NCBI RefSeq assembly: GCF_007559335.1
Contig: NZ_VMBG01000002.1
Span: forward strand, 1,108,501-1,172,500
Length of the DNA: 64,000 bases
Source: Rariglobus hedericola
Lineage (GTDB): Bacteria > Verrucomicrobiota > Verrucomicrobiia > Opitutales > Opitutaceae
Direction: 5' to 3'
The translations under genes were made by a program, and so were the position numbers. Positions 4,626 through 55,734 of the stretch are shown in pieces. The notes below the pieces were generated by a model. That model saw only the letters and a list, made by a program, of their open reading frames with translations. It was not told the DNA's origin and made no database searches. The number at the start of each line of letters is the position of its first letter. The stretch's first letter is position 1.

Positions 4626-4970
4626 TCACAGATCAGGCAAATGCGGTGCGAGTGCATCGCGGAGGCGGGCAATCAACTCCGGATCGTGCGCCGCGGGGTA
4701 ATCGTCGGGGATGCGCAGGATGACCACGGGTTTGCCCGCGAGGTCCTCGGGGAACTTCTCGCGCAGGCGGTCGGCGTGTTTGCGCTCCATGCAAAAAATC
4801 GTGTCGGCCCAGCCGAGGTGGCAGCCGGTGACCTTGATGCGGGCACCGTTTTCGGTGCCGGCCGAACGGGCATCGTAGCGCGGGTGATTCTTGAACAACG
4901 CCTCGGCGGTGGGTGAGCGCCACTGGTTGCGCGAACAGAGGAAGAGGAGCTTGGTCTTGCCGATACTCAC
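4626..4970 (-). CDS. Low-molecular-weight protein tyrosine phosphatase-like protein
   Basis: The 114-residue protein has the CX5R phosphatase loop near its N-terminus: Cys12-Ser-Arg-Asn-Gln-Trp-Arg18, followed by SPTAE. It resembles the predicted tyrosine phosphatases of COG4551, which are shorter than classical LMW-PTPs. A late acidic segment (IPDDYPAAHDPEL) could supply the general-acid Asp. The substrate is unknown. Its start overlaps the end of the sanA-like gene by 4 bp, so it is the last gene of a thiD / sanA-like / phosphatase operon with translational coupling. Confidence 0.8.
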   Translation of the reverse strand: MSIGKTKLLFLCSRNQWRSPTAEALFKNHPRYDARSAGTENGARIKVTGCHLGWADTIFCMERKHADRLREKFPEDLAGKPVVILRIPDDYPAAHDPELIARLRDALAPHLPDL

Positions 4971-5644
4971 GAGCCAAGGGGAGGGAGCGGCTCACGCGGT
5001 CCGGAAAAACGCGGCTGCTTGTTCCACACGTAGAGATCGAGCACGGCCACGGTGCGGGAAACGACTTCGCGCAGCTCGGTGCGCACCGAATAGCGGAAAT
5101 GAGTATCGGTGGCGCAAAAGCCGATCGCATCGATCCCGTGGGCGCGGGCGATCTCCAGCGCGCGGGCGTTGTGGTAGCGCTGCGTGACGATGGTGCACGC
5201 GGTGAGCCCGAAGACGTCGCGGGCGCGTATGACCGAATCCAGCGTGCGGAATCCGGCATAATCGCAGACGATGGCGGATGCGGGCACGCCCCGGGAGATG
5301 AGCGCGTTTTTCATCATCGCAGGCTCGTCGTAGTCGGCGCGGCTGTTGTCGCCGCTGACAAGCAGGCGACGGACTTTACCCGCGTGATAGAGCGCGGCGG
5401 CGGCATCCATGCGATTAACAAAATGCGGATTGGGACGGCCACTGCGCAGCGTGGCATTGGCGCCAAGGACCAGGGCGGTTTCACGCTCGGGAGTTTCCTC
5501 GACGAGCGTGTAAAGTTGATCGCGGTGGCTGCGCGTGATGCGGAGGTTGGAAAAGACCACGAAGGCGACTCCAAGGATCAAGAAGCCGATAAACACGCGT
5601 CGAGTGCGCGACGCACCCAGGAAAAGGCGAAGACGGGAGATCAT
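4967..5644 (-). CDS. SanA/YdcF-like DUF218 membrane protein
   Basis: The 225-residue protein has one N-terminal membrane span (residues about 17-33), then a DUF218 domain with ALVLGA, a VSGDN segment and the ARALEIARAHGI helix. E. coli SanA, of the same family and topology, supports envelope integrity (vancomycin resistance at high temperature). The domain probably faces the periplasm. It overlaps thiD by 4 bp upstream and the phosphatase gene by 4 bp downstream, so the three are co-translated. The exact biochemical activity of the family is not established. Confidence 0.8.
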   Translation of the reverse strand: MISRLRLFLGASRTRRVFIGFLILGVAFVVFSNLRITRSHRDQLYTLVEETPERETALVLGANATLRSGRPNPHFVNRMDAAAALYHAGKVRRLLVSGDNSRADYDEPAMMKNALISRGVPASAIVCDYAGFRTLDSVIRARDVFGLTACTIVTQRYHNARALEIARAHGIDAIGFCATDTHFRYSVRTELREVVSRTVAVLDLYVWNKQPRFSGPREPLPPLGS

Positions 5645-6444
5645 TTTTTCCAGAGGTTGTGAAAGTGGTGCACGGGGCCGTGGCCGGAACCGACGGCTAG
5701 CTGGTCGGAGGCGGCGATCGCGGAGGTGAGGTAGGCTTTGGCGGCGCGGATCGCGTTGAGCGGATCAGTATGTTGCGGCAGCAAAGCGGCGATGGCGGCG
5801 GAAAGCGTGCAACCGGTGCCGTGGGTGTTTTTGGTGGTGATGCGCGGTGAGTGCAGCTCGGTTTGCATGATGCCGTTGTCGATCACGTCGATGCTTTCGG
5901 CGCCGTCGAGATGTCCGCCTTTAAGCACCACGATGCGCGGGCCGAGGGCGTGCAAGGCGCGGGCGGCGGTGCGCATGTCGGCGAGCGTGCGGATGGGCGC
6001 GCGAGTGAGCAGCACCTCCGCCTCGGGGAGGTTGGGGGTGATGATTTCGGCGAGCGGGATGATTTCGGTGCGCAGGGCTTCGACTGCATCGGGGGAGAGC
6101 AAGTGGTGGCCGCTTTTGGAGACCATGACGGGGTCAACGACGAGCCGGCTGACGTGATGACGGCGCAGCGCGGCGGCCACGGTGGCGACGATTTCGGCGG
6201 TGCCGAGCATGCCGATTTTTACGGCGTCGATGCGCACATCGGCGAAGAGCGTGTCGATTTGTTGAGCGATGAATTCCACGGGCACGGCCTGCACGCCGGT
6301 GACGCCCCGGGTGTTCTGAGCGGTGAGGGCGGCAACGACTCCGGTGCCGTAGGCGCCGAGGGCCGAAAACGCCTTCAGGTCGGCGAGAAGACCGGCTCCG
6401 CCCGAGGGATCGACGCCGGCGATACTGAGGACATTGGGAATCAT
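5641..6444 (-). CDS. thiD: Hydroxymethylpyrimidine/phosphomethylpyrimidine kinase
   Basis: The 267-residue protein phosphorylates HMP and HMP-P in thiamine pyrophosphate synthesis. The ribokinase-like fold is evident: SIAGVDPSGGAGLLADLKAF at the N-terminus, VVDPVMVSKSG in the middle, and GTGCTLSAAIAALL near the end with the anion hole and catalytic base region. The ATG at 6444 is preferred to the TTG one codon upstream. It heads an operon with 4-bp overlaps into the sanA-like and phosphatase genes. The 68 bp shared with the divergent ade gene is too short for a TPP riboswitch and none was seen. Confidence 0.93.
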   Translation of the reverse strand: MIPNVLSIAGVDPSGGAGLLADLKAFSALGAYGTGVVAALTAQNTRGVTGVQAVPVEFIAQQIDTLFADVRIDAVKIGMLGTAEIVATVAAALRRHHVSRLVVDPVMVSKSGHHLLSPDAVEALRTEIIPLAEIITPNLPEAEVLLTRAPIRTLADMRTAARALHALGPRIVVLKGGHLDGAESIDVIDNGIMQTELHSPRITTKNTHGTGCTLSAAIAALLPQHTDPLNAIRAAKAYLTSAIAASDQLAVGSGHGPVHHFHNLWKK

Positions 6445-6512
6445 CAAATCCTAGGGATTAAAAGAAGATCGAGGCTTTGCAACTGCGGGCCGGTCGGACA
6501 ACGCTCGGTGTT

Positions 6513-8141
6513 ATGACGACCAAGGTGCGTGTTCAATCGATCTCGGGACAGGTGGTGGATTTATTCAAGCGGGAGATTTTTCACGGGACGGTGGAATGGT
6601 CAGGCGGGCGCATTACTGCGGTGAGACGCGATCCGCGGGTGAAAGATAAACGGCTGATCATGCCGGGGCTGGTCGATGCGCATATCCATATCGAGAGCTC
6701 GCTGCTGCCGCCGTCGGAGTTTGCGAGGCTGGCGGTGATTCATGGCACGGTGGCGACGGTGTCGGACCCGCACGAAATCGCCAACGTGCTCGGCGAGGCG
6801 GGCGTGCTCTACATGCTCGCCGATGCGAAACGGTCGCCGCTCAAGTTTAACTTTGGCGCGCCTTCGTGTGTGCCGGCGACGACGTTTGAGACGGCTGGGG
6901 CGAAACTTGATTCAAAGGCCGTGGCGCGGTTGCTGGCGCGCAAGGATGTGCGCTACCTGGCCGAGGTGATGAATTTTCCCGGCGTGCTCGGACGTGATCC
7001 GGAGTTGATGGCGATGATCGCAGCGGCGAAGACCGAGGAAAAACAAGTCGACGGACATGCGCCGGGATTGCGGGGCGCCCAGGCGAAGGCGTATGCGGAC
7101 GCAGGACCGACGACGGATCACGAGTGTTTCACGATTGAAGAGGCGCAGGACAAACTGGCGGCGGGGATGAAGATTCTTATTCGCGAAGGATCGGCCGCGC
7201 GGAATTTCGAGGCGTTGAAGCCGCTGCTGAAAACGCATCCGCAGAGCTGCATGTTTTGCTGTGACGACCTGCATCCGGATCTGCTGGTGAAACGTCACCT
7301 CGACGAACATGTGCGGCGGGCGCTGGCAACGGGCGCGAATAAATTTGATGTGTTGCGCGCGGCATCGGTGAATCCCGTGGAGCACTATGGGCTGAAGGTC
7401 GGACTGCTGCGCGTGGGCGAAGAGGCTGATTTCATCGTGGTGGACGGTTGGAAGAAATTTCGCGTGGAGCGCACTTATATCGACGGGGCGCTGGTGGCGT
7501 CAGGCGGCCGCACGCGGCTGAAACGGCTGGCTCCGAAGCTGGCCAATAAATTCAAGGCGCGCGCGGTGAAGGCGGCGGATTTCGCGGTAAAAACTGTGGG
7601 CAGCACGTTGAACGTGATCGAGGCGCTCAACGGCCAACTGGTGACCAAACACCTGACGCTGCCGGCGACCGATATCGGCGTGAAACGCGATGTTTTGAAA
7701 ATCGCGGTGGTGAATCGTTACGCGACCAAGGCGCCGGTGGCGGTCGGATATATCCGGGGCTTTGGATTAAAGGCCGGGGCGCTGGCTTCGTCGGTTGCGC
7801 ATGATTCGCACAACATTGTGGCGGTGGGTGTGGATGACGCGTCGCTGGCCGCGGCAGTGAATCTGGTGATCGCGGAAAAGGGCGGACTGAGTGTGGTGGG
7901 ACCGAGGATGAAGGCGGTGCTGCCGCTGCCGATCGCGGGGTTGATGTCGGCGCTGGACGGCCGCGAAGCGGCGCGGCGTTATACGCGGTTGGATCGAACC
8001 TCGAAGAAACTGGGATCGAAACTCGATGCACCGTTCATGACCCTGTCGTTCATGGCGCTGCTGGTGATTCCTGATTTGAAGCTGAGCGACCGCGGTCTGT
8101 TCTCCGCGACGAAGTGGGGTTTTGTGCCGGTGTCGGAGTAA
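6513..8141 (+). CDS. ade: Adenine deaminase
   Basis: The 542-residue protein belongs to the amidohydrolase family that converts adenine to hypoxanthine and ammonia for purine salvage. Metal-site motifs are visible: DAHIHIESS at residues 55-63, SDPHEIANVLG, GHAPGL and TDHE in the middle. The C-terminal adenine deaminase domain is present, with the SVAHDSHNI segment and GGLSVV. Length is close to the family norm. The ATG at 6513 is preferred over an upstream TTG because homologues open near MTTKVRV. It is divergent from thiD. Confidence 0.92.
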   Translation: MTTKVRVQSISGQVVDLFKREIFHGTVEWSGGRITAVRRDPRVKDKRLIMPGLVDAHIHIESSLLPPSEFARLAVIHGTVATVSDPHEIANVLGEAGVLYMLADAKRSPLKFNFGAPSCVPATTFETAGAKLDSKAVARLLARKDVRYLAEVMNFPGVLGRDPELMAMIAAAKTEEKQVDGHAPGLRGAQAKAYADAGPTTDHECFTIEEAQDKLAAGMKILIREGSAARNFEALKPLLKTHPQSCMFCCDDLHPDLLVKRHLDEHVRRALATGANKFDVLRAASVNPVEHYGLKVGLLRVGEEADFIVVDGWKKFRVERTYIDGALVASGGRTRLKRLAPKLANKFKARAVKAADFAVKTVGSTLNVIEALNGQLVTKHLTLPATDIGVKRDVLKIAVVNRYATKAPVAVGYIRGFGLKAGALASSVAHDSHNIVAVGVDDASLAAAVNLVIAEKGGLSVVGPRMKAVLPLPIAGLMSALDGREAARRYTRLDRTSKKLGSKLDAPFMTLSFMALLVIPDLKLSDRGLFSATKWGFVPVSE

Positions 8142-47793: not shown

Positions 47794-48072
47794 TCAGCGT
47801 TTGCCGCGTGCGGGAGCGGCTTTCGCGACCGCAGCTTTTTTGGTGGTGCGGCTGGGGAGCTTGCCCTGACCGGTGCTCTCGTCGAAATCGCGGGCGGACA
47901 CCGCAATCTTTCCATTGCCTTCGATCAATGGATCGACGCCCAACAACTGGCGTTCGGCTTCGAGCCAGATCTCATTGTCGCGACCCTCGGGCTGGCCGTA
48001 GTTCGACCACAGCTCGCGGGCGCGTTGCGAGATATCTTCATGGGAAGCTGATGCGGAAATATCGTTTTTCAT
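47794..48072 (-). CDS. DUF2934 domain protein
   Basis: The 92-residue protein carries the DUF2934 motif: HEDISQRARELWSNYG, EGRDNEIWLEAERQLLG. The tail is basic (TTKKAAVAKAAPARGKR). The family is small, cytoplasmic and of unknown function, often near stress genes. The ATG at 48072 is used. A G/C-run motif oriented toward it lies 77 bp upstream. Confidence 0.85.
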   Translation of the reverse strand: MKNDISASASHEDISQRARELWSNYGQPEGRDNEIWLEAERQLLGVDPLIEGNGKIAVSARDFDESTGQGKLPSRTTKKAAVAKAAPARGKR

Positions 48073-48148
48073 GAGCGGTTTTAGGAGATAACAGGATGAC
48101 GATATCAGCTCATGCAGATCGTTGGAATCAGGTCGCACCTGTATCCGC

Positions 48149-50240: not shown

Positions 50241-50807
50241 TTAGAAGTTGAAACCGACGCCCGCGTTCCAGAGGACGGCACCATCATCGAAGTTGTCCTG
50301 GGCGCCATCGGCGTTTTCAAAGGTCCAGGCGTAGTTCACGAGGGCGAAGAGGAAGGTCTTCGGGAGGACGTAGAACTTGAGACCGGCTTCGAGGCCGGCG
50401 GCCCAAGTGTCGCTGGTATTTTCGCCGTAGATGGCGCCGAAGTTGACGCCGACGAACGGACGGAGACGGCCAGTGCCGAAGTGGTAATCGAGGGCGCCGA
50501 AGGTGGAGCCATCGAATTCGGCATCGCCGGAACCATTGGAGTAGTTGCCTGACTGGCGCACGGAGAGCTCAAGGCTGTCGGTCAGGTAGTGACCGAGAGA
50601 AAAGTTCACGCCGCCGAGAGAGTTGTCCAAGTCTTTGTTGGAAGCGCCGCTGCCGCCGAGGGTGAATTCCCACTCACCTTTGACCGCGCCGAATTCAGAT
50701 GGCTGGTAGGTCGCGACGGGAACGGTCTCGGTGCGGGTCTGGGCCGACACGAAGGTGGAGGCGAAGAGCAGGGACGCGCCTGCGAGGATCAATTTAGTCT
50801 TATTCAT
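50241..50807 (-). CDS. Small outer-membrane beta-barrel protein
   Basis: The 188-residue protein has a signal peptide (residues 1-22, ending TFVSAQ) and alternating strands typical of an 8-stranded barrel: GEWEFTLGGSGASN, FSLGHYLTDSLELSVR, LRPFVGVNFGAIYGE and FLFALVNYAWTFENAD. It ends in Phe (GVGFNF), as barrels recognised by BamA do. Role unknown. A G/C-run motif lies 113 bp before its start, pointing toward it. Confidence 0.82.
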   Translation of the reverse strand: MNKTKLILAGASLLFASTFVSAQTRTETVPVATYQPSEFGAVKGEWEFTLGGSGASNKDLDNSLGGVNFSLGHYLTDSLELSVRQSGNYSNGSGDAEFDGSTFGALDYHFGTGRLRPFVGVNFGAIYGENTSDTWAAGLEAGLKFYVLPKTFLFALVNYAWTFENADGAQDNFDDGAVLWNAGVGFNF

Positions 50808-50919
50808 TTTGAGTTTTGTTTGGGTTTGTTTGGTCGTCCCCAGGTCGAGGACTTCATCACGTTTTGGCGGGCTCAACGGCTGCGCAATTCGCAATCGATT
50901 CCATTCATACCTAACGTGG

Positions 50920-50937
50920 CATGGGGGCGTTTTCCTA
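50920..50937 (-). promoter_or_regulatory. G/C-run motif before the outer-membrane protein gene
   Basis: On the minus strand TAGGAAAACGCCCCCATG points to the barrel gene, 113 bp from its start. It sits in a 255-bp gap that also holds the next terminator. Confidence 0.55.
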
Positions 50938-50960
50938 GGGACGCCTCGGGTGGAAAATAA

Positions 50961-50989
50961 AAAACCGCGACGATGAGCGTCGCGGTTTT
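50961..50989 (-). terminator. Terminator of the glycine-zipper/H1-like gene
   Basis: AAAACCGCGACG and CGTCGCGGTTTT form a perfect stem around a 5-base loop; on the minus strand it continues TTATTTT. Confidence 0.85.
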
Positions 50990-51062
50990 ATGGGGGAACC
51001 GGATGGTTCCCAGAGGAGATTTGAGAAAGGTTTTTTCGTGGAAGATTCCTCTATGCCAAAGT

Positions 51063-51506
51063 TCAGCGTTTGCCTGCGGGCTTCGTTTTTTTCTTGGCAG
51101 TGGATTTTTTAGGAGCGGCGGCACGCACGGTTTTTTTGACCGCTTTCTTGACGGTCTTTTTTGCGGTGCTCACGGCGGCCTTGGTTTTAGAAGCGGTTTT
51201 TTTCGCAACGGTTTTGGTTTTCGCGGCCGCTGTTTTGACTGCTTTCTTAGCGGTGGTCTTAACGGATTTAGCGGCCGCTTTCACGGTGGCTTTTGCTTTT
51301 CCGCCGGCAGTGGGAGCCGGTGATTCATCCGCTGCTGCACCCAAGCCCAGACCGATCACGCCGCCGATGACGGCGCCGATGGGGCCGCCCACCAATGCGC
51401 CAAGCAAGGCGCCGCTGGTGCCGACCGTGGCTTTTTGAGTGACATGCAAATGCGAGGCTTCGTCCGGCTTGGTGGCCGGGGTGCGGGAGGGAGGTTTTGT
51501 GGCCAT
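51063..51506 (-). CDS. Glycine-zipper membrane protein with histone H1-like Lys/Ala tail
   Basis: The 147-residue protein has a short N-terminal region, a glycine-zipper segment (residues about 31-58: GALLGALVGGPIGAVIGGVI) that would span the membrane, and from residue 68 a tail of Lys, Ala, Thr and few acidic residues, e.g. KSVKTTAKKAVKTAAAK. Such tails resemble histone H1 and bacterial H1-like proteins that bind DNA. Joined to a membrane span, it might tether DNA to the membrane, if the tail faces the cytoplasm. I know of no named family with this order. Confidence 0.65.
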   Translation of the reverse strand: MATKPPSRTPATKPDEASHLHVTQKATVGTSGALLGALVGGPIGAVIGGVIGLGLGAAADESPAPTAGGKAKATVKAAAKSVKTTAKKAVKTAAAKTKTVAKKTASKTKAAVSTAKKTVKKAVKKTVRAAAPKKSTAKKKTKPAGKR

Positions 51507-51604
51507 AGGTTAAGTCTGCGATGGGTTGTGGTATCGCAGGCTACCCTCAAAGTGGACAACGGCCGGTATAAGTTCCCTAGGATCGGCGCTTTCGCGTATC
51601 CAGG

Positions 51605-52519
51605 TTACAGGGACAGATTGCGCCGCACCGGCCGGTCGAGATCCGAAAAGTCACGACCACCATCGCTGAGATCGGTGACGCGGGTGAACTCTGCTCCGAA
51701 GAAAATAATCTGTGCCGCATAATAGCACCACAACAGCAGCACGATCAGCGAACCCGCGGCGCCATAGGCCGAGGCGACACTTGCATTGGCGAGATAGAAT
51801 CCGAGTCCGGTCTTGCCTGCGGTGAACAGCACGGCGGTGAAGACCGAGCCGAGCCACACGTGCCGCCAGCGCACGCGCGTGTCGGGCAGCAGCCGGAAGA
51901 TCACGGCAAAGAGAATGGTGACCATGCCGAGCGAGAGCACGATGTTCACCAGTTGAAGCGCGAGTGGCGGCAGGCTGAGTCGTGCGACGGTGTTGGCGCT
52001 GAGCCAGCTCAGGAATGCGCTGGCGATGAGCGAGACCAGCAGCAAGAAACCAGTCACGAGCACCATCGCGATGGAGAACAGTCGTTTTCGGAGCGTCCGC
52101 CACATGCTGGTTTCCTTGGGGGGTGGCACATGCCAGATGGTGTTGAGCGCATCCTGCAGATGATAGAACACACCGAAGGCACCGAACAACAAGGTGCCGG
52201 CGCTGATGATCGTGGCGATGCGACCGGCGGAGTTGTTGGCGGGACTCTGCACGGCTTCGATGGCCGTGCTGGCCTGTTCGCCTGCGAGGTTTTCAATCTC
52301 CATGAGAACGCGTTCCCGTGCCGCGTCTTTGCTGTCGAAGAAGAAGCCGGCGAGGGCAATCGCTAGAACGAGCATGGGCGCTATGGCGACGGTGGTGTAG
52401 AAGGCGAGGGCGGCACCGAGCCGGCTGACATTGTCCGAAAAGAACACCTTCACCGTCCGCCACAGCAACAGGGGGAAGCGACGAATGAAGAAGGGATCGG
52501 CCGGCTGCTTCGCCTTCAT
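51605..52519 (-). CDS. YihY/virulence factor BrkB family membrane protein
   Basis: The 304-residue protein has about six spans and the BrkB pattern: VFFSDNVSRLGAALAFYTTVAIAPML, then GVFYHLQDALNTIWHV, and SVASAYGAAGSLIVLLLWCYY. The family is in the inner membrane with unknown function. Its ATG shares the last base of the upstream UbiB-type gene's stop codon, so the two are translationally coupled. No terminator was seen downstream; a weak G/C-run-like sequence (GTTCCCTAGG) lies after its end at 51571. Confidence 0.85.
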   Translation of the reverse strand: MKAKQPADPFFIRRFPLLLWRTVKVFFSDNVSRLGAALAFYTTVAIAPMLVLAIALAGFFFDSKDAARERVLMEIENLAGEQASTAIEAVQSPANNSAGRIATIISAGTLLFGAFGVFYHLQDALNTIWHVPPPKETSMWRTLRKRLFSIAMVLVTGFLLLVSLIASAFLSWLSANTVARLSLPPLALQLVNIVLSLGMVTILFAVIFRLLPDTRVRWRHVWLGSVFTAVLFTAGKTGLGFYLANASVASAYGAAGSLIVLLLWCYYAAQIIFFGAEFTRVTDLSDGGRDFSDLDRPVRRNLSL

Positions 52520-54183
52520 TACTTGGTGTCCTTGTTACTTTGATCGTGAAGGAAAATATTGATCAAGAGCCAGAATGCGCCGGCCGCCGCCAGGAGAAAG
52601 CAGACAATGGCGATGCCCGGATAACCGAAGAGATGAAAACGCGTTTCGATGCGCATCATCAACGCGGCGCCGATGATAAGCGACGCCAGCATGAGACCGG
52701 TGGTGATGCGGTTGGCGATCTTCTGCATGCCGTCGAGCATTAGCTTGGCGTCGACCGCCTTCACTTTCACTTCGACCTCGGAGTTGGTGACCGCGTCCAT
52801 GATGCGGTTGAGGCGGCCGGGCAGTTGCGTGGTGAAGTCCTTCAACTCAAGCAGCGAGCTGAACGCGCTGCCCTGTGTGAGATCCTTCTTCATGCGTCGC
52901 GTCATCATGTCGGTGACGTTGCGGCGGATGGAGGCGTTGGGATCGAATTCGGGATCGAGAATGCGGCCGACCTCGTCGAGCTGCAGCAGGGTTTTTCCGA
53001 GGAGCGTGAGCTCGCTGGGAACGAACAGGCCGTTGTCGCGAGCGTTGGTGCTGACATCGAGGAGCGACTGGCCGACTTTGATTTGCTCCAGGCCCTGATC
53101 GCGACGGATCGCCACCAGCTGGCTGATTTTGCGGCGGAATTCCGGCGCGTCGAACGTCGGTAGTTTTTCACTCATGCGGATGACCGTCTCGGCGGCCTCC
53201 TCGCCCTTGCCCTCACTGACCGCGATCAGGAGTTTGAGCAGGTGTTCCTGCATGCCCGGTCCGGTGTGGCCGACCATGCCGAGATCGAGCAAGGCGATGC
53301 GATTGTCGCCGGTCAGGAAGACATTTCCCGGGTGGGGGTCGGCATGGAAAATACCGTCAACGAGAACCTGCTTCAGGTAGGCTTTAAACAGTTCCTCCAC
53401 CATGAGGGCACCATCAATATCGATGCGGGCCAGCGGGCTGATCGAAGTGATTTTTTGCCCCTGCACATAGTCCATCGTTAGGACGCTGCGCGTGCTGTAA
53501 TCTATCACGGGCTGCGGCACGGTGATAAGCGCGAACTCCTTCAGATTTTTTCCGACCGTGATTAGATTCTGAGCTTCGTTTTCGTAGTTGAGCTCCTGCT
53601 GAATCGCGATGCGGAACTCTTCGAGCACGGTGGCGAAACGATAGCGTTTGCCAGCGGCAGTGTGGTTGTCGAGGAACGAGGCTATTTCGCCAAGAACCTC
53701 AAAATCCTCGGCGATCTGCGCACGGATGCCGGGACGTTGGATCTTCACGACAACCTCGCGTCCATCGCGCAGGGCGGCGGCATGCACCTGGCCCAAGGAA
53801 GCGGCGGCCAGCGGCGTGACATCGAAGCGGCTAAACGCCTTCGAGATGCGCACACCCAATTCGTTCGCCACGATTTTTTCGACCTCTTCGTAAGGGAAGG
53901 GCGTGATTTTATCCTGAAGGCGCTCAAGGGCCTTCAAATAAGGTGCGGGCAGGAGATCGGGACGACCGGCGAGCACCTGACCGATTTTAATGTAGGTCGG
54001 ACCCATGGCCTCGAGATCATCAGCGAGTTGGTCCGGGGTGACGTCGCCGATTTTTTTGCCCTCTTTTTCGGGATCATAGGGCTCGTCGAACTCCATGTTT
54101 TTGACCAAGTCCGAGCGCCCGTATTTCCAGAGAAGAAAGGCGATTTCCTTGTAACGTTTAAAATGGCTGAGGGAGAGTTTCAT
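52519..54183 (-). CDS. UbiB/ABC1 family atypical kinase
   Basis: The 554-residue protein has the KxGQ motif (TYIKIGQVLAGRPDLLP), an Ala-rich loop (AAASLGQVHAA) and the ATP-site VVKIQRPG, HADPHPGNVF and LLDLGMVG. Two C-terminal spans follow (about 505-545). The family supports quinone biosynthesis or lipid homeostasis in an ATP-dependent way. The gene is coupled to the YihY gene (1-bp overlap). Naming it ubiB is avoided since ubiquinone synthesis is not shown here. Confidence 0.88.
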   Translation of the reverse strand: MKLSLSHFKRYKEIAFLLWKYGRSDLVKNMEFDEPYDPEKEGKKIGDVTPDQLADDLEAMGPTYIKIGQVLAGRPDLLPAPYLKALERLQDKITPFPYEEVEKIVANELGVRISKAFSRFDVTPLAAASLGQVHAAALRDGREVVVKIQRPGIRAQIAEDFEVLGEIASFLDNHTAAGKRYRFATVLEEFRIAIQQELNYENEAQNLITVGKNLKEFALITVPQPVIDYSTRSVLTMDYVQGQKITSISPLARIDIDGALMVEELFKAYLKQVLVDGIFHADPHPGNVFLTGDNRIALLDLGMVGHTGPGMQEHLLKLLIAVSEGKGEEAAETVIRMSEKLPTFDAPEFRRKISQLVAIRRDQGLEQIKVGQSLLDVSTNARDNGLFVPSELTLLGKTLLQLDEVGRILDPEFDPNASIRRNVTDMMTRRMKKDLTQGSAFSSLLELKDFTTQLPGRLNRIMDAVTNSEVEVKVKAVDAKLMLDGMQKIANRITTGLMLASLIIGAALMMRIETRFHLFGYPGIAIVCFLLAAAGAFWLLINIFLHDQSNKDTK

Positions 54184-55011: not shown

Positions 55012-55734
55012 ATGAGCAAACAACAACTGATCCTTAACGTCACGACCCGCGCCCAAACCGGTCGTTCTGCCTCCCGCCGCGTGCGCAAGGCCAACCAGAT
55101 CCCTGCGATCCTCTACGGAAAGCACACCAAGCCCGAGTCCATCGCCATCGATGCACCGGAGTTCGTGCGCCTCCTCAAGTCCGTCGCCGGTCGTGCGCTC
55201 CTCATCGAGCTCACCCGTAAAGATGCGTCTGACACGGTTAAATCCCTGTCCTTCCTCCAGGAAGTTCAGCGCGATCCGATCACCGACAAGTTCCTTCACA
55301 TCGACTTTCAGGAAGTGAAAGCCGACGAAACGCTCGAAATCCGCGTGCCTGTTCAGGTCGTGGGCGAGTCGTTTGGCGTGAAGAACCAGAACGGCGTGTT
55401 GGAAGTCGCCACGCACACCCTGCGCGTGCGCTGCTTGCCGAAGGATCTGCCCCCCGTCATCGAGGTCGATGTGACCGAGCTGAAGGTCGGCGAGGCGTTC
55501 AAGGTCGGCACGCTCAAGCCCATCTCGGGTGTCGAGTTCCTTGACCTCAAGGGCCAGCCGGTTGTCTCCGTCGTCGAGCCCGTGGGCGAAATCGCCTCCG
55601 CCGCTCCCGCCGCTGCTGCTGCCGCTGCCGCTACCGCCGCCAAACCCGGCGCCGCCGCTGCTCCCGCCGCCGACGCCAAGGCCGCTGCTCCCGCTGCTGG
55701 CGCCAAGCCGGCCGCCGCTCCCGCCAAGAAGTAA
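55012..55734 (+). CDS. rplY: Large ribosomal subunit protein bL25 (CTC form)
   Basis: The 240-residue protein has the L25 N-terminal beta-barrel that binds 5S rRNA (RRVRKANQIPAILYGKHTK) and the CTC/TL5 C-terminal domain (HIDFQEVKADETLEIRVPV, GVLEVATHTLRVRCLPKDLP). The last about 45 residues are a low-complexity Ala/Pro/Lys tail (AAPAAAAAAAATAAK) not needed for the fold. It begins the translation gene cluster; pth follows after 60 bp. Confidence 0.93.
   Translation: MSKQQLILNVTTRAQTGRSASRRVRKANQIPAILYGKHTKPESIAIDAPEFVRLLKSVAGRALLIELTRKDASDTVKSLSFLQEVQRDPITDKFLHIDFQEVKADETLEIRVPVQVVGESFGVKNQNGVLEVATHTLRVRCLPKDLPPVIEVDVTELKVGEAFKVGTLKPISGVEFLDLKGQPVVSVVEPVGEIASAAPAAAAAAAATAAKPGAAAAPAADAKAAAPAAGAKPAAAPAKK

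Follow-up and report, generated by a model that had tools for sequence, protein, structure and literature searches.

The gene at 51,063–51,506 on the minus strand of the window (the whole stretch of 64,000 nucleotides analysed here) encodes a glycine zipper followed by a strongly basic tail. Its relatives appear to conserve the charge of the tail much better than the sequence. Based on this pattern, the protein could be an inner-membrane anchor that displays cytosolic polycation tails, which would hold nucleic acid, either DNA or RNA, at the membrane. We give this explanation the most weight, with slightly less than even confidence.

The open reading frame starts with ATG and encodes 147 amino acids plus a stop codon, exactly where the original prediction placed it. 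All of its parts are on the minus strand. The N-terminal segment (residues 1–31; 51,414–51,506) has a net charge of +2, and no hydrophobic stretch is seen in it by eye. The glycine zipper (residues 32–56; 51,339–51,413) is a candidate for a single membrane-spanning helix. The Lys/Ala/Thr tail follows (residues 57–147; 51,066–51,338). On the 3' side of the gene, at 50,961–50,989 on the same strand, is a terminator-like hairpin whose stem has 12 bp. No sigma-70-like promoter site was found in 50,700–51,750. This looks like a genuine gene, because homologues of the same layout are present in other genomes and the terminator-like site is on the strand of the gene. No paralogue was found in its own genome, where the gene itself is the sole match at E <= 10.

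The sequence of the zipper is GALLGALVGGPIGAVIGGVIGLGLG. The glycines G32-G36-G40-G44-G48-G52-G56 form (GxxxG)6 across 25 residues, with a mean Kyte-Doolittle value of 1.80. Shuffling the 34 residues in and around the zipper 20,000 times recreated this spacing of seven glycines 7 times, and all seven glycines are invariant in a 7-row alignment of the window's branch. The zipper had been described as membrane-spanning. The zipper itself is confirmed by these data, and a passage through the membrane is what its composition would suggest.

A survey of homologues had been proposed along with the original prediction, and it finds proteins of the same layout in three bacterial families of one class. 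In the first family, to which the window belongs, a profile search found members in at least 7 of 252 genomes (G000, G097, G206, G148, G071, G094, and G248; one member is cut by a contig end). These seven were counted from at least 14 matched genomes; G051 and the proteins at L116–L119 are not members, G101 (L120) and G231 (L122) were left out, and the second match in G094 (L123) is another zipper protein. Within the window's genus, at least 2 of 13 genomes contain the gene. Narrower searches matched at least 5 of 150 family genomes (single protein) and at least 8 of 252 (alignment A1, with the non-member G051 among them). Of 83 genomes of the second family, 47 reach E <= 3.3e-14. At E <= 1e-6 the number is 52, and one of the five not counted, G850 (L056), has another zipper protein. 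The third family has matches in 3 of 40 genomes. A class-wide search matched at least 26 of 384 genomes. Reading frames at 19 loci yielded eight new members, and the match at L066 was left out. In these eight proteins, an N-terminus with a net charge between −5 and +4 leads to a motif of the type IPPISKQTAG, which is followed by the zipper and a basic tail of 75–119 residues.

Some matches proved to be other proteins. The zipper-only profile A2 matched at least 8 of 387 genomes of the phylum. The matches in the window's genome and in G399 are members, and those at L017, L018, L020, L022, and L023 are other zipper proteins. The two loci from a scan of genome contigs encode a zipper protein with a signal-like start (L006) and a protein of DnaJ type (L007); the layout of both differs from that of the window protein. 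No match was found in plasmid records. Zipper profiles also caught a different glycine-zipper family in several genomes (L056, L060–L062, L065, L116–L118, and L123). Most of its proteins contain a Y/F-x-x-A-Y-R-x-G-Y-type stretch after the zipper.

Tail charge was compared in 39 members with tails of at least 40 residues, which are 41 rows minus a duplicate (L064 = L106) and minus L014, cut by a contig end. Start codons were set by rule, and L096 has no ATG in frame. The second family is represented by the best 30 of 47 loci by score. The tail has a net charge of +21 to +48 in 36 of the 39 members, in all three families. The other three belong to a short-tailed genus with 59-residue tails of only +5 to +6. 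They are three of the six complete first-family members, which counts against a nucleic-acid tether. Tail chemistry varies: Lys/Ala tails are found in the window's family and Lys/Arg/Ser/Gly tails in much of the second, and two members of the third (L064 and L108) have KPAA/PAKK-like tails. Among 30 second-family members (435 pairs), the median pairwise identity is 75% for the motif plus zipper vs 39% for the tail, and shuffled tails give 33%. By these comparisons, the charge is retained far better than the sequence. The varied chemistry with constant charge fits selection for charge. A nucleic-acid tether becomes more likely, because very different tail sequences keep a large positive charge and because KPAA/PAKK-like members exist in the third family. 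A link between nucleoid and membrane had been suggested from the window alone. The polycation conserved in relatives makes its nucleic-acid-binding tail likelier, and does not extend to the H1-specific reading or to DNA specifically.

The 91-residue tail of the window protein contains 27 Lys, 2 Arg, 26 Ala, 14 Thr, 4 Pro, and 2 acidic residues, with a net charge of +27. The predicted combination of a zipper with a Lys/Ala/Thr-rich tail is therefore present. The resemblance to histone H1 is partial. H1-type tails are disordered and consist of proline-containing KPAA/PKKA repeats. The tail here is likewise basic and Lys/Ala-rich, but its 61-residue core, trimmed by hand, contains no proline, has an amphipathic period, and is predicted to be helical. 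The window protein has no match to an Hc1 or linker-histone profile at E <= 1, and Hc1 histones were found in 0 of 194 genomes of the phylum, its own genome included. Judged by its sequence, the tail is not a standard H1 tail, and the H1 label appears only partly right.

The hydrophobicity of the core peaks at 97.4 degrees per residue with a power of 11.6, matched by 0 of 2000 shuffles. This is near 11 residues per three turns (98.2 degrees), where the power is 10.9, vs 5.3 at 100 degrees. When the core is written in rows of 11, Lys occupies one position in all five full rows and another in four of five, and Ala or Val occupies two adjacent positions in five of five. The trimmed tail of G248 peaks at 98.0 degrees (power 22.2; 0/2000 shuffles). 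That of G097 peaks at 97.8 degrees, reached by 32 of 2000 shuffles at any angle from 80 to 120 and by 1 of 2000 at 98.2. Three short-tailed relatives, also trimmed, peak at 100.2–100.4 degrees (36, 52, and 47 of 2000 shuffles). The 11-residue amphipathic periodicity is present in the hand-trimmed window tail and weaker on the longer one: over 81 residues, the peak at 98 degrees is reached by 1 of 500 shuffles. The longer tail of G097 has its highest peak at 162 degrees (30/500).

As a control, eight Lys/Ala-rich stretches of 50 residues were taken from the window and 13 loci, four from members and four from others. The members gave 0, 0, 10, and 28 of 500 shuffles. The non-members, with 5–7 prolines in each stretch, gave 242, 257, 350, and 375 and thus have no periodicity; one of these four is a confirmed gene (DUF2934, L042). 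AlphaFold2, run without an alignment, predicts a single helix at residues 71–130 (51,117–51,296, minus strand; block pLDDT 78–93), overlapping the periodic core. Over the zipper it gives two low-confidence helices, 31–39 and 42–52, and the mean pLDDT of the model is 66.9. Since Lys/Ala-rich sequence is helix-prone in any predictor, the periodicity is weighted above the model.

Basic tails are also seen on other proteins. DUF2934 proteins with a Lys/Ala/Pro-containing C-terminal tail are encoded at 47,794–48,138 of the window and at L042:4587-5024, and the tail of the latter is without helical periodicity. The product of 55,012–55,734 in the window resembles ribosomal protein L25 by eye and has a long Ala/Pro/Lys C-terminal tail.

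The periodicity of the trimmed window and G248 tails, together with the predicted helix, raises another explanation. The 11-residue-repeat amphipathic tail might lie on the cytosolic face of the inner membrane and protect or shape the membrane under stress, with the zipper merely as its anchor. The 3-11 helices described for Plin4, apolipoproteins, and alpha-synuclein are parallels, and Plin4 requires its lysines to reach the plasma membrane in yeast, according to the parts of PMC5889406 consulted. Membrane families and stress-named families are found among the neighbour genes of the window and its relatives. Some second-family tails are periodic as well. Over whole tails, the peak was reached by 5 (L049), 8 (L054), 31 (L051), 47 (L050), 147 (L052), 249 (L053), and 298 (L058) of 500 shuffles. 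Over the first 45 residues, the numbers are 2 (L049), 0 (L054), 133 (L051), 11 (L050), 15 (L052), 70 (L053), and 150 (L058), so that L049 and L054 are periodic in both comparisons and L050 and L052 in the second. In the third family, L064 is periodic at 93.5 degrees (0/500). However, the signal fades with less trimming, the hydrophobic face is weak (Ala/Val/Thr), and the purified Plin4 helix binds bilayers poorly (PMC5889406, in the part consulted). It is difficult to regard a lipid-lying helix as the function shared by all members, because the tails of several second-family proteins are Gly/Ser-rich and, over their length, non-periodic. The relatives with Gly/Ser-rich or KPAA-like tails are the reason why this explanation is ranked as a rival, and we consider it rather unlikely. 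In the window's branch, a lipid-lying helix may be the function, and there it is the main rival.

For a nucleic-acid tether, the tail has to be cytosolic. The N-terminus is less positive than the whole tail in all 39 members read. In 33 of them, the 15-residue flank on the tail side of the zipper also exceeds the preceding 15-residue flank in positive charge. The other six are precisely the first-family members with complete tails, including the window protein (+1 before the zipper and −1 after); they count against the preferred explanation. The positive-inside argument is firm for the sequences of the second and third families. In the window's family it rests on the distal tail and not on the local flanks, and the side of the tail is uncertain in the window's branch because of these local charges. 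DjlA-like proteins, so assigned by eye (a zipper, then TerB-/DnaJ-like parts), have a similar N-terminal zipper (L007, positions 4908–5771; L017; L018; L020). The C-terminal part of DjlA is cytosolic. By analogy, the zipper of these proteins may give a hint of topology, as a lead only.

If the zipper were instead a long signal anchor or a signal peptide, the tail would be outside the inner membrane and bind envelope polyanions. In favour of export, the charges next to the zipper in the window's branch do not speak for a cytosolic tail. The residues after the zipper, GAAADE in the window protein and GAVAEH in L002 and L004, are compatible with the A-x-A rule of signal peptidase. Certain zipper proteins look like exported ones: by eye, the one at L006 has a signal-like stretch at its start, and a weak match in the PDB (E 1.3) is the outer membrane lipoprotein SlyB. 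Against export, no signal-like stretch is seen by eye before residue 31, the zipper, at 25 residues, is longer than expected of a signal core, a +27 tail should resist translocation, and the flank on the tail side is the more positive one in most members, as above. An exported tail is highly improbable.

The upstream neighbour of the gene encodes a YihY/BrkB family membrane protein (51,605–52,519, minus strand), identified by a profile match. It shares 51,605–54,183 with an ABC1-kinase gene on the same strand, the two overlapping by one base at 52,519, both upstream of the zipper-polycation gene. The latter has the YihY/BrkB gene on one side and, on the other, a small gene whose match to an outer-membrane beta-barrel domain (PF13505) stays below the cut-off (23.3 of 28.7 bits). 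DUF748, DUF2934, DUF4142, and a PLD-type gene belong to the same stretch. At the site of the polycation gene, four genus-mates have a YflT-type glycine-zipper protein beside YihY, on the opposite strand (L041:8008-8547, L040:5925-6560, L042:5951-6727, and L039 at about 6168–6515). Its domain scores above the cut-off in L041 and below it in L040. In G074, G233, and G117 it lies between YihY and a barrel gene, the latter recognised by eye; in G117 at least one further gene is also between them. In G097 it adjoins YihY, and the zipper-polycation gene is at another locus. Matches to the YflT-type protein are found in 4 of 13 genomes of the genus; the window's genome has none at E <= 0.001, and no remnant is seen at that place in the window. 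Other first-family neighbourhoods differ by eye, with a BON-domain gene adjacent in G071.

The second family has a more constant neighbourhood. Six of the seven neighbourhoods read have a ketosynthase, an RRM gene, a DegT aminotransferase, and a menaquinone gene in common; the seventh, L068, has none of the four. In L069–L074 the block reads ketosynthase, RRM protein, (methyltransferase-like protein), zipper-polycation protein, (amino acid permease), DegT aminotransferase, and menaquinone gene. At 21 of the 30 second-family loci, the RRM gene (RRM_1, E 3.1e-24) precedes the zipper-polycation gene on the same strand. From the end of the aligned RRM to the zipper-polycation gene there are 200–267 bases in 13 loci and 1028–1116 in eight. 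In the four neighbourhoods read among these eight, a methyltransferase-like gene, below Pfam cut-offs, lies between. The RRM gene was not found at 9 of the 30 loci; at one of these nine, the upstream sequence is just 255 bases long. The first- and third-family members searched have no RRM gene at a distance of up to about 1.5 kb.

Given the RRM neighbour at 21 of the 30 second-family loci, RNA is indicated no less than DNA. A narrower form of the preferred explanation is a tether for RNA or ribosomes specifically. The place of the RRM gene in the block common to six of seven neighbourhoods is in its favour, as is the precedent of YqjD and ElaB, which recruit ribosomes to the inner membrane by binding them (PMC10746276, in the part consulted). 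The tail also matches ribosomal protein bS20, non-significantly (E 2.5 to 8). However, the RRM gene is within a larger conserved block, and its adjacency may be general synteny. The lack of an RRM gene near the searched members of the other two families, and of a DUF883 listing at E <= 1 for the window protein, also counts against it. This narrower form is unlikely.

The window protein stays below the cut-off of every profile. No Pfam model spans the whole protein. Gly-zipper_YMGG (20.5 of 28.9 bits) and Gly-zipper_Omp (14.5 of 25 bits) are under their cut-offs. Among relatives, L050 passes the Gly-zipper_Omp cut-off at 27.8 bits (residues 29–58), and L064 just reaches it at 25. NCBIfam gave matches far below cut-off only for the five members scanned. 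Membership in PdsO (TIGR03789) was rejected at 44 of 152.2 bits, residues 10–108 vs profile positions 27–125 of 243. The window protein has no match to a DNA- or RNA-binding profile, nor to an LEA, synuclein, or perilipin profile at E <= 1. DUF883, absent as stated above, is presumably the YqjD family. The best match in a PDB sequence search is "Cargo protein 1 gp45" (E 0.00098, residues 24–95). A PDB fold search with the AlphaFold2 model, uninformative at its mean pLDDT, gave no match at E <= 10. The best PHROGs E values are 3.2e-4 for the window protein and, over the zipper, 1.9e-6 for L050.

In the explanation we prefer, the seven-glycine zipper would cross the membrane once, with the N-terminus out and the tail in. 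Zippers probably pack side by side in several copies, so that many basic tails would be shown together. The tails would act as sequence-independent binders of nucleic acid and hold DNA or RNA close to the membrane, probably in times of stress. Within the window's branch, the Lys-rich amphipathic tail could also rest on anionic lipid. Nucleic acid is probably the best single candidate for the ligand, owing to the charge kept with little sequence, the protamine-like and H1-like variants, the RRM neighbour, and the precedents of Rv3852, AlgP, PhaF, YqjD, and ElaB. The missing nucleic-acid-binding profile match, the amphipathic window tail, which suits lipid at least as well, the missing RRM gene in two families, and the patchy distribution in the genus stand against this explanation. 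It can be speculated further that zipper-anchored polycations from at least three families of one class form membrane clusters that gather nucleic acid, with an RRM partner in one family, into a nucleic-acid-binding coat of the inner membrane. Charge would be the main constraint, and the tail would have drifted between helical, protamine-like, and H1-like forms. We doubt that the whole of this picture is right. The helical, protamine-like, and KPAA-like tails represent naturally occurring versions of a single layout, and the family would be a simple system for asking if charge alone holds nucleic acid at a bacterial membrane.

To our knowledge, few cases of membrane tethers with H1-like tails exist. 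The family is not described in the titles and abstract openings of the papers listed in searches on glycine-zipper, histone-like or H1-like, and membrane-anchored lysine-rich nucleoid proteins. Gly-zipper_YMGG and Gly-zipper_Omp have the GxxxG repeat in common with the window protein, but their matches do not cover the tail. Plin4 and alpha-synuclein are alike in 11-residue periodicity, lysines on the polar face, and a weak hydrophobic face, whereas the window tail is nearly free of acidic residues, is joined to a membrane zipper, and has no profile match. The other systems are compared by description, from the parts of the sources consulted. YqjD, ElaB, and YgaM are small inner-membrane proteins whose cytosolic part binds ribosomes (PMC10746276); they are C-tail anchored, in contrast to the window protein, for which DUF883 is not listed. 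AlgP and PhaF of Pseudomonas combine a second domain with a basic C-terminal Lys/Ala domain and have whole-protein net charges of +55 and +35 (PMC9239181). Their KPAA tail, as described there, is repetitive and predicted to be disordered, whereas the window core is proline-free and predicted to be helical; the consulted part of that source does not mention a membrane zipper. AlgP associates with polyphosphate granules (PMC9239181), so polyphosphate is a possible ligand by analogy. Rv3852 of slow-growing mycobacteria is described as a nucleoid-associated protein that is membrane-tethered while DNA-bound (PMC8233713). It has a single hydrophobic anchor and KAAK/PAAK-type H1-like repeats, for which the zipper, a candidate membrane anchor, and the basic segment would be the counterparts here. 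Its anchor is C-terminal, whereas the zipper occupies residues 32–56 of 147 in the window protein, and a glycine zipper is not mentioned in the consulted description of Rv3852 (PMC8233713). Membrane-tethered proteins with basic tails are already known from Rv3852, and the conserved family that joins a zipper to a polycation tail appears to be new.
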